Shown: positions 11,701 to 23,694 of the stretch, piece after piece | How the letters are laid out: every line of letters starts with the position of its first letter | Numbering within the stretch: position 1 is the first letter of the stretch | Assembly: GCA_946887295.1 (NCBI GenBank) | Contig: CAMPKP010000039.1 | Location: forward strand, 1-23,694 | DNA: 23,694 nt | Source: an uncultured Gemmatimonadota bacterium | Lineage (GTDB): Bacteria > Gemmatimonadota > Gemmatimonadetes > Gemmatimonadales > GWC2-71-9 | Reading direction: 5' to 3' | Program-made: the position numbers and the translations under genes | Notes under the pieces: model-generated | What the model saw: only the letters and a program-made list of their open reading frames with translations | Database searches by the model: none | What the model was told of the DNA's origin: nothing

Positions 11701-13059
11701 TCAGGCGCGCTCGCTCTCCCGACGCTCGCCGAGCGGCAGCCGCAGGCACGCCCGCGCGCCCCGCCTCGTCGCCTTCGGCTCGAGCGACAGCGTGCCGCCG
11801 TGCGCTTCCGCGATCTGCCGGCTCAACACCAGGCCGATTCCGGAACCGCTCGCCTTGGTGGTGAAGAACGGCACGAACAGGTTGCCGGGATCGGGAAGTC
11901 CGGGGCCCTCGTCCTCGACCACCACCTCGAGCACCCCGGCAGTCGTTCTCCAGCACAGCTCGACCCCGCCGCCCGTCTCCAGCGCCGCGTCGGCGGCGTT
12001 CCGCACGAGGTTGATGAGCAACTGGTCGAGCTGGTCCCCATCGGCGGTCACCGAGACGGGGGGGCCGCTTCTCACCTGAACCTCGACCCTGGTCTCGAGG
12101 GCCGCGACCCGGCCCATCCAGGCGGCTACGTCCACCGAGCCGAGGTGCGGCTGCGGCAGCCGGGCGAGCCGCGCATAGGCGCCCATGAAGCGCCCCAGGG
12201 CCTCCGAGCGACCCTCGATGACTTCCAGCCCCGTGCGAAGATCGCTCTCCCAGTCGGACGGCCGCGCGGATCGGGCGGCCAGGCTCCGGAGACTGCCGGC
12301 GATGGACTTGATCGGCGCGAGAGAGTTGTTGATCTCGTGCCCCAGCACCCGCACCAGCCGCTGCCACGCCGATCGTTCCTCGGCACGCAGAACCCGGCTG
12401 AGATCGGCGATGACCAGCAGCTGGTGAGGGAGTCCCTCCTGTCGGAAGGTTCCGCTCCGCGCTTCCCACCGCCCGGCGCCGCCGGGGAACGTCGCGTCGA
12501 AGGTGCGCGGGCTCTCGCCGCCGAGCCAGTCGCTGAGCCCGAGCGCCTCCGAAGGCCGGCCGATGAGCCGTTCCGAAGGCTGGCCCAGCAGCCGCTCGCC
12601 GGCGCGGTTCACCAGCCGGAGCCGCCGGGTCCCGTCGAAGGCGAAGACCGCCACGTCGATCTCCTCGATGACCCGCCGGAGGAGCGCGGTGGCCTCCAGC
12701 TCCCGCAGTCGCTGGCCACGCAGGGTCTCGCTCAGCGCGTTCACTTCCAGCAGCGCGAGGCCCAGCGCGTCGTCCGCGTTGGCGCCCCGGGCGCGGATCG
12801 AATAGTCGCCCTCGCGCAGCGCGGCCAGGAGGTTGGAGATCGTCTGGAGCGGCCGGACCACCCGCTCGCGAAGCAGCAGCGCCCCCATCACCCACGCGCC
12901 GGCAGCCAGCAGGCTGAGGGTGAGCCGGACTCGAAGCGGGTGGTCGCCCGCCCACAACAGCCATCCGGCGATCACCACCGCCGGCAGGCCCGCGGCGAGG
13001 GCACCGGTGAAGACGCGCGACTCGTGGCTTCGGGGTCGCTTCCGCCGCTTAGAGCCCAT
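11701..13059 (-). CDS. Sensor histidine kinase, NtrY-like (2 TM, HAMP, PAS, HisKA, HATPase)
   Basis: This 452-aa kinase has two membrane helices (about 15-37 and 45-63) joined by only a few residues, so there is no periplasmic sensor domain. HAMP (about 64-118) is followed by a PAS domain (about 125-225, with [19 protein letters not shown]). The dimerisation/phosphoacceptor helix has [16 protein letters not shown] (His241). The ATPase domain has N box [11 protein letters not shown] (Asn354), G1 DEGPG (383-387), F box FVPFFTTK and G2 GSGIGL (405-410). The phosphoacceptor region with N-N-S-L-A-P resembles NtrY/NtrB-type kinases. Its start overlaps the regulator's stop by 11 bp, marking it as the cognate kinase. 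The signal is probably sensed in the membrane or by the PAS domain; the ligand is unknown. Confidence 0.93.
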
Positions 13060-14422
13060 AGTGTTGGAGCCGTCGGTAGAGGGCGCTGCGGCTCAGTCCC
13101 AGCGCCTTCGCGGCGTGGCTCACGTTGCCGGCGTGCCGCTCCAGCGCCTTCCGGATCAGGAGGCGCTCGACCTCCTCGAGCGGCAGATCCTCCAGCCGCG
13201 GCACCGATCCCGTGCCGGTCCGAAGTCCCAGATCCCCGGCGCGGATCGCCTCGCCCTGGGCCATGAGGACGGCGCGCTCGAGCGTGTGGTCCAGCTCGCG
13301 CACGTTTCCCGGCCACGAGTGCGCCTCCAGGGACTCGATCGCATCGGGCTCGAACCCGACCAGCGCCTTCCGGTAGCGGGAGGCGTAGCGGGCGAGGAAG
13401 TGCTCCGCGAGTGGTCGGATGTCCTCGCGGCGCTCCCGCAGCGGCGGCAGACGGATCTCGATGGTGTTGAGCCGGAAGAGCAGGTCCTCCCGGAAGCGCC
13501 CGGCGGCCACCTCCGCGCCGAGGTCGGCATTGGTGGCCGAGAGGAGGCGGACGTCGATGCGGCGCGCCCGCGAGGCGCCGACCCGCTCGACCTCGCCGGT
13601 CTCGAGCACCCGCAGCAGCTTGGCCTGCTGCCGCAGCCCCAGCGTGCCGATCTCGTCGAGCAGGAGGGTGCCGCCTTCCGCCAGCTCGAACCGGCCGATC
13701 CGGTCGGCGCGCGCATCGGTGAACGCGCCCTTCACGTGGCCGAACATCTCGCTCTCGAAGAGGCCTTCGGCGAGTCCCCCGAGATTGACCGCGACCAGCG
13801 GCCGCGCCGCACGGGGAGAGGCCGAGTGGAGCCACTGGGCGACGACTTCCTTTCCGGTGCCGTGCTCCCCGCTCACCAGCACGTTGGCGTCGGACGCCGC
13901 CACCCGGTCCATGAGCTGCAGCACGGGGCGCATCGCGGGGGAGTGGGCGATCAGCTCCGGGGCGCCGTCGCGGCGCAGCAGCCGGTTCTCGCTCTCGAGT
14001 CGCCGGGTCCGCCGGAGCGCGCGGCCGAGCTCCACCTGGGTGCGAACGGTGGCGAGCAGCCGGTTGTTGTCCCAGGGCTTCTCGATGAAGTCACGGGCGC
14101 CGCGTCGCATGGCCTCGACCGCCTTCTCCACGCTGCCCCACGCGGTCATCACCACGGTCGGCAGGGTGGCGTCCAGGGCCTGAAGCTGGGAGACCAGCTC
14201 CAGCCCTTCGCGGCCGGTGGTGGTATCGCGGGCGTAGTTGAGGTCGAGCAGCACGGCATCGAAGTCGGTGGCCTGAGCCGCGGAGAGCACGCCGGCCGGG
14301 GAGGCGGCGGTGTCGATCGCGTAGCCCTCGCCCTTCAGCAGCAGCCGCAGCGCCTCGCGGACGTGGGGCTGGTCGTCCGCGACGAGCACGTGAGCTGGCG
14401 GGGATGTGGGAGAGGTCGGCAC
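13049..14422 (-). CDS. NtrC-family response regulator (REC, AAA+, Fis HTH) with GAFTDA loop
   Basis: This 457-aa protein starts at GTG 14422. The receiver domain spans about 10-125, with acidic pocket D16/D17 and phosphoacceptor Asp60 in DAVLLDLNYA. The AAA+ domain (about 155-395) has Walker A GEHGTGKE (Lys191), Walker B GGTLLLDEIG (D256/E257), and sensor and arginine-finger segments near LPPLRERREDI. A Fis-type HTH (about 415-457, ending [14 protein letters not shown]) binds DNA. The sigma-54 contact loop, normally GAFTGA, reads GAFTDA (232-237). Members of this family activate sigma-54 promoters when phosphorylated. The substitution raises doubt about standard coupling to sigma-54. It lies between the ABC genes and the kinase, so its targets probably include this transporter block. 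Confidence 0.93.
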   Translation of the reverse strand: MPTSPTSPPAHVLVADDQPHVREALRLLLKGEGYAIDTAASPAGVLSAAQATDFDAVLLDLNYARDTTTGREGLELVSQLQALDATLPTVVMTAWGSVEKAVEAMRRGARDFIEKPWDNNRLLATVRTQVELGRALRRTRRLESENRLLRRDGAPELIAHSPAMRPVLQLMDRVAASDANVLVSGEHGTGKEVVAQWLHSASPRAARPLVAVNLGGLAEGLFESEMFGHVKGAFTDARADRIGRFELAEGGTLLLDEIGTLGLRQQAKLLRVLETGEVERVGASRARRIDVRLLSATNADLGAEVAAGRFREDLLFRLNTIEIRLPPLRERREDIRPLAEHFLARYASRYRKALVGFEPDAIESLEAHSWPGNVRELDHTLERAVLMAQGEAIRAGDLGLRTGTGSVPRLEDLPLEEVERLLIRKALERHAGNVSHAAKALGLSRSALYRRLQHYGL

Positions 14423-14453
14423 GGTGTCAGAATGTAGCGGCCGGAGGAGCGGC

Positions 14454-14485
14454 CGGGAGGTCGCCGGGGGGATTACCTCCTCCCG
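14454..14485 (-). terminator. Hairpin just downstream of the second ABC ATPase gene
   Basis: CGGGAGGT (14454-14461) pairs with ACCTCCTCCCG (14475-14485) with a 2-nt bulge, starting 1 bp past the ATPase stop. There is no T-run, so full termination is unlikely; it may attenuate read-through into the regulator gene. AGCGGCCGG is repeated with a 12-bp period at 14436 and 14448, next to the hairpin. Confidence 0.3.
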
Positions 14486-22691: not shown

Positions 22692-23398
22692 GCCACCTCC
22701 CGACCGAGCGGTGAGTGTGGGACGATCCTGCCATCGAAGAGGTAGACATGGCGGCCGGCGCGACTCAGGTACCGGGCATCGTGGGTGACGATCACGATCG
22801 TGGCGCCCTCGTGGCTGAGATCGTCCAGCAGCTCCATGACCTGCTCGCCGTTCCTCGAGTCGAGGTTGCCGGTCGGCTCGTCCGCCAGGAGCACCAGGGG
22901 CCTGCCCACCACCGCCCGCGCCACCGCGACGCGCTGCTGCTGACCGCCGGAGAGCTGCGCGGGATAGTGGTGGATCCGGTGGAGCAGGCCCACTCGCTCC
23001 AGTGCCGCGTGCACCAGGGCGCGCCGCTCCGTCGGAGCCATGCCCCGGTATTTGAGCGGGAGCTCGACGTTGTGAAACACGTCGAGGTCGCCGATGAGAT
23101 TGAAGGACTGGAAGATGAAGCCGATGGCCCGGCTGCGTACCCGGGCCCGCTGCGCGGGCGACAGCGTGGCCACCGGCTCGCCCGCGAGCACGTAGCTCCC
23201 CTCGCTGGGCGAATCGAGCAGGCCGAGGATCGAGAGCAGCGTGGTCTTGCCGCATCCCGAGGGCCCGCAGATCGCCACGAACTCGCCGGCCCGGATCTCC
23301 AGCGCGACCCGGGAGAGGGCATGGGTCTCGACCTCCTTCGTGTGGAAGATCTTGGAGACGCCGTCCAGGCGGATCAGCGGATCGATCGGGAGCGGCAT
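22688..23398 (-). CDS. ABC transporter ATP-binding protein, MacB/LolD type
   Basis: This 236-aa ATPase is fully canonical: Walker A GPSGCGKT (45-52), Q-loop in FIFQSFNLIGDLDV, signature LSGGQQQRVAVARA (149-162), Walker B LVLLADE (168-174), D-loop GNLDSRNG and H-loop His206. It belongs to the MacB/LolD/FtsE-like group that drives mechanotransmission permeases. It starts 2 bp after the stop of the permease that enters from the right and overlaps the next permease by ATGA. It therefore sits between two permeases and could serve either or both. Confidence 0.96.
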   Translation of the reverse strand: MPLPIDPLIRLDGVSKIFHTKEVETHALSRVALEIRAGEFVAICGPSGCGKTTLLSILGLLDSPSEGSYVLAGEPVATLSPAQRARVRSRAIGFIFQSFNLIGDLDVFHNVELPLKYRGMAPTERRALVHAALERVGLLHRIHHYPAQLSGGQQQRVAVARAVVGRPLVLLADEPTGNLDSRNGEQVMELLDDLSHEGATIVIVTHDARYLSRAGRHVYLFDGRIVPHSPLGREVA

Positions 23399-23400
23399 GG

Positions 23401-23694
23401 CTATTCGTTGCGCAGCGCGAGCATGGGATCGGTGCGCGCCGCCCGCCGGGCGGGGATCGCCGCCGCGAGAATCGCGACCGCCGTCAGCACCACCATGCCG
23501 GTGGCGAAGGTCGGCGGATCGGTGGGGCTCACGCGGAACAGCAGGCTGGAGACGAGCCGGGAGAGCGCCAGCGCGCCCGCCAGGCCGACCACCAACCCGA
23601 TGCCGGCCAGCGCCGCGCCGTGGCGCACCACCATGGCCAGCACGTCCCCGTGGCGCGCGCCGAGCGCCATGCGGATCCCGATCTCCTGGGTCCG
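23401..23694 (-). CDS. ADOP/MacB-type permease, C-terminal part only
   Basis: Ninety-seven codons plus a TAG stop are visible; the rest lies beyond the right edge. The sequence starts RTQEIGIRMALGARHGDVLA, the last FtsX helix-bundle entry motif, has two hydrophobic segments and ends ARTDPMLALRNE, as do the other permeases here. It is thus the fourth permease of the same block. Whether it is full-length (about 800 aa) or a short MacB-like form cannot be seen. Confidence 0.88.
   Translation of the reverse strand, partial: RTQEIGIRMALGARHGDVLAMVVRHGAALAGIGLVVGLAGALALSRLVSSLLFRVSPTDPPTFATGMVVLTAVAILAAAIPARRAARTDPMLALRNE

Follow-up and report, generated by a model that had tools for sequence, protein, structure and literature searches.

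A Gemmatimonadota ADOP permease array with two ATPase types and a sigma54-type two-component system as probable part of a regulated MacB-like export module

The window analyzed here is a 23,694-nucleotide stretch from an uncultured Gemmatimonadota bacterium (contig CAMPKP010000039.1 of assembly GCA_946887295.1, positions 1 to 23,694). Its minus strand, read from 23694 to 11701, carries an array consisting of a fragment of an ADOP permease (P0), a first ATPase (ATPase-1), three full ADOP permeases (P1 to P3), a second ATPase (ATPase-2), a sigma54-type response regulator and a histidine kinase (Table 1). This bears out the initial annotation, which had listed permeases, ATPases, regulator and kinase on one strand; of the at least four permeases it counted, however, three are full and the fourth is only a fragment at the window edge. 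From P0 to the kinase, the junctions are a 2-nt gap, a 4-nt overlap (ATPase-1 with P1), a 99-nt gap, a 4-nt overlap, a 28-nt gap (P3 to ATPase-2), a 64-nt gap and an 11-nt overlap. The tight spacing described earlier thus stands, all other gaps being at most 64 nt or overlaps, but the remnant given as 107 bp measures 99 nt between the stop of P1 and the ATG of P2.

Table 1. Genes and other features of the array in the window.
Feature	Position	Strand	Evidence
P0, tail (C-terminal 97 residues) of another ADOP permease, truncated at the window edge	23401-23694	-	FtsX, 50.8 bits
ATPase-1, GPSGCGKT / LSGGQQQRV / GNLD type	22688-23398	-	Domain and curated-model matches, tree clade
ADOP permease P1	20229-22691	-	TIGR03434, 961.7 bits; two MacB_PCD and two FtsX stretches
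99-nt spacer, perhaps what is left of a deleted ADOP gene	20130-20228	-	ADOP-like start and end in different frames
ADOP permease P2	17667-20129	-	TIGR03434, 965.3 bits; G020 counterpart 65% identical over 780 residues
ADOP permease P3	15214-17670	-	TIGR03434, 909.1 bits; MacB-like model and fold matches
ATPase-2, GPSGAGKS / LSGGQQQLV / GNLH type	14487-15185	-	Domain and curated-model matches, tree clade
Response regulator: receiver, sigma54-interaction AAA+ (GAFTDA), Fis-type helix-turn-helix	13049-14422	-	Domain matches
Histidine kinase: two transmembrane helices with short loop, PAS, H-box, HATPase_c	11701-13059	-	Domains, hydropathy

All three full permeases exceed the cut-off of the ADOP model TIGR03434 (622.3 bits), and each contains two MacB_PCD and two FtsX stretches, that is, duplicated halves; the P0 fragment (134.8 bits, model positions 707-803) is too short to reach the cut-off. 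The ADOP family takes its name from the lack of an ATPase next to the permease, a trait that is absent from the window, where ATP-binding genes adjoin the permeases. With MacB_PCD and FtsX domains and a MacB-like fold, the permeases belong with the type VII ABC transporters (MacB superfamily); they have eight to nine predicted transmembrane helices and two periplasmic domains. An AlphaFold2 model of P3 (pLDDT 82.4, pTM 0.74, 25 sequences) shows two MacB-like halves and has YbbAP and MacB as its best fold matches. The best full-length match is YbbAP (9ge6, E 6e-20) at 14% identity and a TM-score of 0.42, so the likeness is one of fold class only; by sequence, P3 best matches MacB-type structures such as 5xu1.

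The 99-nt spacer starts like an ADOP gene (MMDTLRQ) and ends, in another frame, in ...ALRIE-stop. It may be the scar of an internal deletion, which it fits without proving it. In one related locus (L002, 5180-5279; G, C and L numbers are our handles for genomes, contigs and loci) a clear C-terminal remnant of P2 lies between the homologs of P1 and P3 (LLPALRATHTDPITVIRSD-stop, compared with FLPALRATRTDPITALRSE in the window), so that permeases do get lost through internal deletion. The extra ADOP gene of a related genome, G020, was considered as a counterpart of the spacer and rejected, as it sits between P2 and P3 and the spacer between P1 and P2.

The two ATPases differ in motif type, as initially claimed, in the window (GPSGCGKT, LSGGQQQRVAVA and GNLD in ATPase-1 versus GPSGAGKS, LSGGQQQLVGVA and GNLH in ATPase-2) and in their homologs, which with few exceptions carry GPSGCGK[TS], LSGGQQQRVAVA and GNLD or GPSG[AS]GK[ST], LSGGQQQLV[GA]VA and GNLH, respectively. 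A tree of 59 ATPases from kinase loci separates 31 of the ATPase-2 type (support 100/99) from 26 of the ATPase-1 type (93/79), with two distant sequences apart. Judged from this tree, ATPase-1 and ATPase-2 represent deeply separated clades that both persist next to this regulator in two phyla, and a recent duplication was rejected since the clades are separate. The Walker A lysine, signature, Walker B glutamate and H-loop histidine are kept in both types (alignments of 13 and 14 sequences), so both ATPases are probably active. Among curated NCBIfam models the darobactin exporter component DarD scored best for both (247.5 and 237.8 bits, under its cut-off of 375). The best score of any window protein with the MacB equivalog PRK10535.1 was 221.8 bits (cut-off 966), ATPase and permease being separate genes here. 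In two Gemmatimonadota loci a cluster gene that looks protein-kinase-like by eye directly precedes ATPase-2 (L072, 1042-2088; L075, 6638-7789).

The window kinase has transmembrane helices at residues 16-34 and 44-62 by hydropathy, joined by a loop of about nine residues, and no periplasmic sensor domain. The short loop was noticed by eye and then estimated across homologs. The initial annotation had called the kinase NtrY-type, an annotation habit that does not hold up: a large periplasmic domain is missing, and the top curated model among the 25 listed is AtoS, at 91.2 bits against a cut-off of 646, which leaves NtrY as a label only. The regulator has an NtrC-like domain order, with 362.4 and 335.7 bits for the curated NtrC and NtrX models (cut-offs 558.6 and 600). 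Its sigma54-interaction domain scores 209 bits, as in sigma54 enhancer-binding proteins, and the GAFTDA motif recurs in 60 of 72 regulators, with GSFTDA in seven and no match in five. A copy of the regulator pair in a locus labelled as a Euryarchaeota archaeon (L074) lies near bacterial ones and is perhaps a binning error.

No adaptor or TolC-type gene was seen among the array genes, no sigma70-like promoter at 11000-23694, and no tRNA or RNA family in the window. The array is followed on its 3' side by an MscL gene directly after the kinase (11165-11608, minus strand), a gene without Pfam match, a winged-helix gene and a UppS-like gene; a protein that looks like MscL by eye recurs 1.4-5 kb past the kinase in four loci.

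Genome contigs, mostly from metagenome-assembled genomes of Gemmatimonadota and Acidobacteriota, were scanned with the kinase alignment, and the best 80 of 372 loci were kept; 16 of the 80 hold both ATPase types. Among the 57 loci whose sequence extends 4 kb or more beyond the kinase on its upstream side, the regulator immediately precedes the kinase in 51, an ATPase occurs upstream in 33 and an ADOP permease in 36, and at least one ADOP or ATPase gene stands before the kinase on the same strand in 50. The cross-genome comparison proposed initially thus reveals a gene order conserved across phyla, and chance clustering was rejected on this ground. The opposite arrangement, with permeases and two-component genes in unrelated places, had been named as one that would speak against a unit; it does occur in a minority of genomes, yet some of the separated genes there still bear a shared enhancer, described below.

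The full order in relatives is adaptor, ATPase-1, ADOP permeases, ATPase-2, in some a TolC-like gene, regulator and kinase, sometimes with a second ATPase-1-type gene. The closest full-set region, that of G020, comprises an adaptor, ATPase-1, three ADOPs, a second ATPase-1-type gene, four ADOPs, ATPase-2, regulator and kinase. It is the right half of this region to which the window corresponds, with P1, P2 and P3 matching at 71, 65 and 70% and the window ATPase-1 being 77% identical to the second ATPase-1-type gene. An adaptor is consequently expected beyond the right edge of the window, where it probably lies; further ADOPs, another ATPase-1-type gene and, ahead of the adaptor, a sigma54 promoter with an enhancer are likewise predicted there. 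The adaptors of three relatives, when tested, were HlyD-like, and a gene for a TolC-like outer membrane efflux protein (OEP) lies inside the module of G012 and L026. The earlier remark that no adaptor or channel gene is visible is thus true of the window but not of its relatives, in which the adaptor is mostly the first gene. In the explanation we favor, with moderate confidence, the window would hold the downstream half of an export module, each ADOP corresponding to a fused pair of MacB-like half-permeases.

The short-loop kinase also allows a different emphasis, in which the permease-ATPase complex, as in Bce systems, is mainly a sensor for the kinase and export is secondary. Across 59 kinase homologs (two further ones are truncated) the loop between the two transmembrane helices was estimated at 6-15 residues with a median of nine, comparable to the linkers of fewer than 11 residues reported for BceS (PMC3023708), and the permeases carry large periplasmic domains. 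However, the adaptor and, in some modules, the TolC genes argue for trans-envelope export, the permease is not of the 10-helix BceB type, the regulator is sigma54-type, and seven of the 57 kinase loci lack an adjoining transporter. We regard a mainly sensory role as rather unlikely.

Regulation of the module was addressed in 34 de-duplicated adaptor upstream regions (those in which the adaptor scores 250 bits or more and its start is preceded by 250 bases or more), whose counts are not independent events because several come from close relatives. The sigma54 pattern GGCACN5TT[GC]C is present in 13 of the 34, always within 110 bp of the start, compared with a mean of 0.16 and a maximum of 2 of 34 at any position in shuffles; further regions carry the site with one mismatch, as judged by eye. 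An earlier generic sigma54 scan of 35 upstream regions, in which some genomes occurred twice, was weaker (mean 17.1 versus 15.6). About 100 bp upstream of the sigma54 site lies a palindromic element of the approximate form TGTYCGnnnnTGGGACG...TCCCAnnnnCGGnCA; the exact 17-mer TGTYCGN5GGGACR occurs in 18 of the 34 regions, often followed by the mirror half TCCCAnnnnCGGnCA. This putative enhancer was spotted by eye, then scanned for and tested on held-out genomes, and a half-site search reached 13 loci against 6-9 in ten shuffles. With a sigma54 promoter and enhancer before the first gene in many relatives, the module looks self-regulated, in line with the initial hypothesis. The window array itself has no enhancer match and no sigma54 match on its coding strand, as expected if a single promoter precedes the adaptor; four sigma54-like matches on the plus strand, three of them within the array range, face the other way. 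Outside this set, the enhancer pattern is found with a GGCACGGACCTTCC site (by eye) at about 3218 of L167 (G002 C9), where there is no ADOP match and which is a possible regulon member, and a palindromic enhancer with a sigma54-like site lies at 3203-3311 of L166 (G034 C89) beside a kinase-like gene (44 bits with the kinase profile).

Most ADOPs lie elsewhere in their genomes. In three single-contig genomes, ADOPs over the cut-off among the matches listed number 43 (G004), 47 (G005) and 20 (G006); for G004 and G005 these are 90 of 109 listed matches, 19 below the cut-off having been dropped, and their lists may be incomplete because scoring covered 63 of the 92 candidates in one and 63 of the 78 in the other. 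MacB/LolD-like ATPases were defined by E<=1e-40 to the ATPase-2 profile. None lies within 5 kb, centre to centre, of 106 of these 110 ADOPs; the four that have such a neighbour, in G004 and G005 and none in G006, always have one of the ATPase-2 type. None of the 110 lies within 20 kb of the kinase.

The enhancer nevertheless recurs before dispersed ADOPs. The scoring matrix was built from 20 of the 34 adaptor upstream regions, excluding 10 with more than two mismatches, 2 off-type ones and the 2 from G004 and G005 themselves. In these two genomes 18 of 90 mostly dispersed ADOPs are preceded by an enhancer scoring at least 12 (1.4 in shuffles) and 12 by one scoring at least 16 (0.0 in shuffles), and a column-shuffled matrix gave a mean of 0.9 and a maximum of 5 in 30 trials. 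Of the 18 enhancer-bearing ADOPs, 11 also have a sigma54 match scoring 9 bits or more, versus 1 of the 72 others (Fisher p 8e-9). In longer stretches of the same genomes, 16 enhancer matches fell in 16.4 kb of ADOP upstream sequence versus 10 in 201 kb elsewhere, and five of these ten, with sigma54 matches 108-112 bp downstream, belong to the two adaptor operons and to ATPase-2 genes situated far from the kinase in G004, which has two such matches, and in G005. Among 14 ATPase-2 genes located away from a kinase and with upstream DNA (some on other contigs of fragmented genomes, some in genomes without kinase), five carry the enhancer (G004, G005, G003, G018 and G118), three of them with a sigma54 match as well (G004, G005 and G018). 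The recurrence of the enhancer before dispersed ADOPs and separated ATPase-2 genes is new. On these sites, regulation in trans appears well supported in G004 and G005; for other genomes the case is weak.

Another explanation would be a self-contained local exporter, an operon of MacAB-TolC type equipped with its own two-component system; its several ADOPs would stem from local duplication, and the dispersed ADOPs would be unconnected with its ATPases. ADOPs do adjoin ATPases in the window and in G020, in some ADOP-poor genomes (for example G129 C133, G074 C33 and G101 C57) an ATPase-1-like gene, an ADOP and the kinase lie together within a few kilobases, and the majority of tested ADOPs lack the enhancer. 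On the other hand, six loci (L009, L012, L013, L033, L041 and L043) possess adaptor, both ATPases, regulator and kinase with no permease between them, in G006 both ATPases lie near the kinase while the listed ADOPs are all more than 20 kb away, and the enhancer and sigma54 site precede dispersed ADOPs and separated ATPase-2 genes. We consider a purely local exporter distinctly improbable, the least likely of the alternatives weighed.

The kinase is single-copy in 12/12 genomes, 25/25 carriers and 15/16 carriers (G117 has two), and ATPase-2 counts were 13 genes in 12 genomes, 18 in 17 carriers and 15 in 15 carriers. Co-occurrence was examined in 61 Gemmatimonadota and 60 Acidobacteriota genomes, with ADOP presence set at E<=1e-170, ADOPs counted up to 13 per genome, and at most 48-49 ATPase and 27-28 kinase candidates scored per genome. 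Ignoring phylogeny, the kinase was matched in 41 of 52 ADOP-positive versus 0 of 69 ADOP-negative genomes and ATPase-2 in 31 of 52 versus 1 of 69. Among the ADOP-positive genomes ATPase-2 is present in 23 of 26 ADOP-rich versus 8 of 26 ADOP-poor ones, ADOP-rich (at least 10) having been defined after the counts were seen. Thus kinase and ATPase-2, mostly single-copy, track the presence of ADOPs. Single departures are G121, which is ADOP-rich and has ATPase-2 with the kinase not matched, and G087, with ATPase-2 and no counted ADOP. The highest ADOP count seen was in the 4.8-Mb acidobacterial genome G073, with 235 first-look candidates, 13 of them scored. This copy-number pattern fits the initial proposal that several permeases share ATPases, a sharing that is itself inferred.

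The dispersed ADOPs could also belong to the stimulon of the regulator without using its ATPases, relying on other ATPases or on no ATP at all. Each genome has several other MacB/LolD-like ATPases, and the ADOP-rich G037 has neither ATPase type at the threshold used. Yet in G004 and G005 the ATPase-2 type is the only MacB/LolD-like ATPase within 5 kb of ADOPs, ATPase-2 tracks ADOP-richness, and the same enhancer precedes 5 of 14 separated ATPase-2 genes; co-regulation without sharing therefore seems unlikely to us, if slightly less so than a purely local exporter.

We return, with moderate confidence, to a regulated type VII (MacB/YbbAP-like) export module in which the ATPases and the adaptor would work with the local permeases and with some of the dispersed ones. 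Several observations weigh against it. Enhancer recurrence is strong only in G004 and G005, and its cases there are not all independent, since the two genomes appear to share some orthologous ADOPs. When the longer stretches were searched for sigma54 matches up to 260 bp away on either strand, these accompanied 7 of 16 ADOP-side versus 8 of 10 other enhancer matches. In four further genomes (G002, G007, G001 and G011) the enhancer scored at least 12 before 4 of 60 ADOPs, the best-scoring matches of a longer list, with 0.6 expected; three of the four have a sigma54 match, one overlapping the start codon, and a pattern search added two G001 cases. G006 has the enhancer before 1 of 20 ADOPs, without a sigma54 match. 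The bare 17-mer is unspecific (66 matches in 14 genomes versus 19 for the reversed pattern) and precedes an ADOP in 2 of the 9 stretches looked at. Seven of the 57 kinase loci have no neighbouring transporter gene (L063, L028, L056, L021, L065, L027 and L035), MacB/LolD-like ATPases number 7-12 matches per genome at E<=1e-40 with both types included, and the co-occurrence figures take no account of phylogeny. Three ADOP-rich genomes (G016, G037 and G048) have neither ATPase-2 nor kinase matches, and G037 has neither ATPase type at E<=1e-65. Most tested ADOPs fall outside the regulon, and its sparse occurrence beyond G004 and G005 implies that it covers part of the ADOPs and varies between lineages.

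In the module as we picture it, the short-loop kinase would sense an envelope or membrane cue, perhaps via the permeases themselves, and would phosphorylate the NtrC-like regulator. The regulator could then bind the palindromic enhancer and, together with sigma54-RNA polymerase, activate the operon of adaptor and ATPase genes, some of the ATPase-2 genes located apart from it and part of the "orphan" ADOPs elsewhere in the genome. A few ATPases and an adaptor would thereby serve several interchangeable permeases in exporting their substrates, much as MsiK, MsmK or MceG do for importers. In a bolder, tentative version that we find somewhat less plausible than not, ATPase-1, ATPase-2 and the adaptor are the common engine of the "orphan" ADOPs; tens of permeases would compete for one or two ATPases, perhaps with an ATPase-1/ATPase-2 heterodimer under the permease halves, and an intramembrane-type kinase and sigma54 regulator would select which permeases are made. 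In two large soil phyla many genomes carry ADOPs by the tens, and the module and its recurring enhancer point to concrete promoters and to the partners that these permeases were thought to lack.

Our literature searches, with subscription journals mostly outside their scope, found no paper naming a partner ATPase or regulator of ADOPs in the text accessible to them. The accessible parts of PMC10564751, PMC11573002, PMC5985334 and PMC3023708 likewise describe neither an ATPase that partners ADOPs nor a MacB under sigma54 control; in PMC10564751, 102 "acidobacterial orphan permeases" are reported for one acidobacterium, 80 of them transcriptionally active.

Compared with known systems, the window permeases belong to the ADOP family by score and by their duplicated MacB_PCD-FtsX halves, and this family has 20-47 dispersed copies in the three single-contig relatives; they differ in being flanked by two ATPase types and a regulator, plus an adaptor in relatives. 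The module resembles MacAB-TolC in its MacB-like domains, fold and ATPases and, in relatives, in the HlyD-like adaptor and TolC-like channel, but its ATPase is separate, the permease is a fused double unit present in several versions, and it has its own sigma54-type regulator. The type VII ABC transporter YbbAP of E. coli likewise combines a single long, fused permease and a separate ATPase; it is not known to have a dedicated two-component system. The darobactin exporter DarBCD provides the best-scoring NCBIfam model, DarD, yet both window ATPases remain below its cut-off. BceAB-BceRS similarly couples an ABC transporter to a short-loop, two-helix kinase (PMC3023708), and the window kinase shares the two helices and very short loop of BceS-type kinases. 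The module is unlike it in having a PAS kinase, a sigma54-type regulator, an adaptor, another permease layout (the window permease lacks the 10 helices and the large loop between helices 7 and 8 of BceB) and a distribution in other phyla. Finally, MsiK, MsmK, MceG and FhuC are cases in which one ATPase serves several permeases, as proposed here. These are experimentally studied importers, in contrast to the exporter-type family and genomic evidence considered here, and the module would, if the proposal is true, be an exporter-side example of such ATPase sharing.

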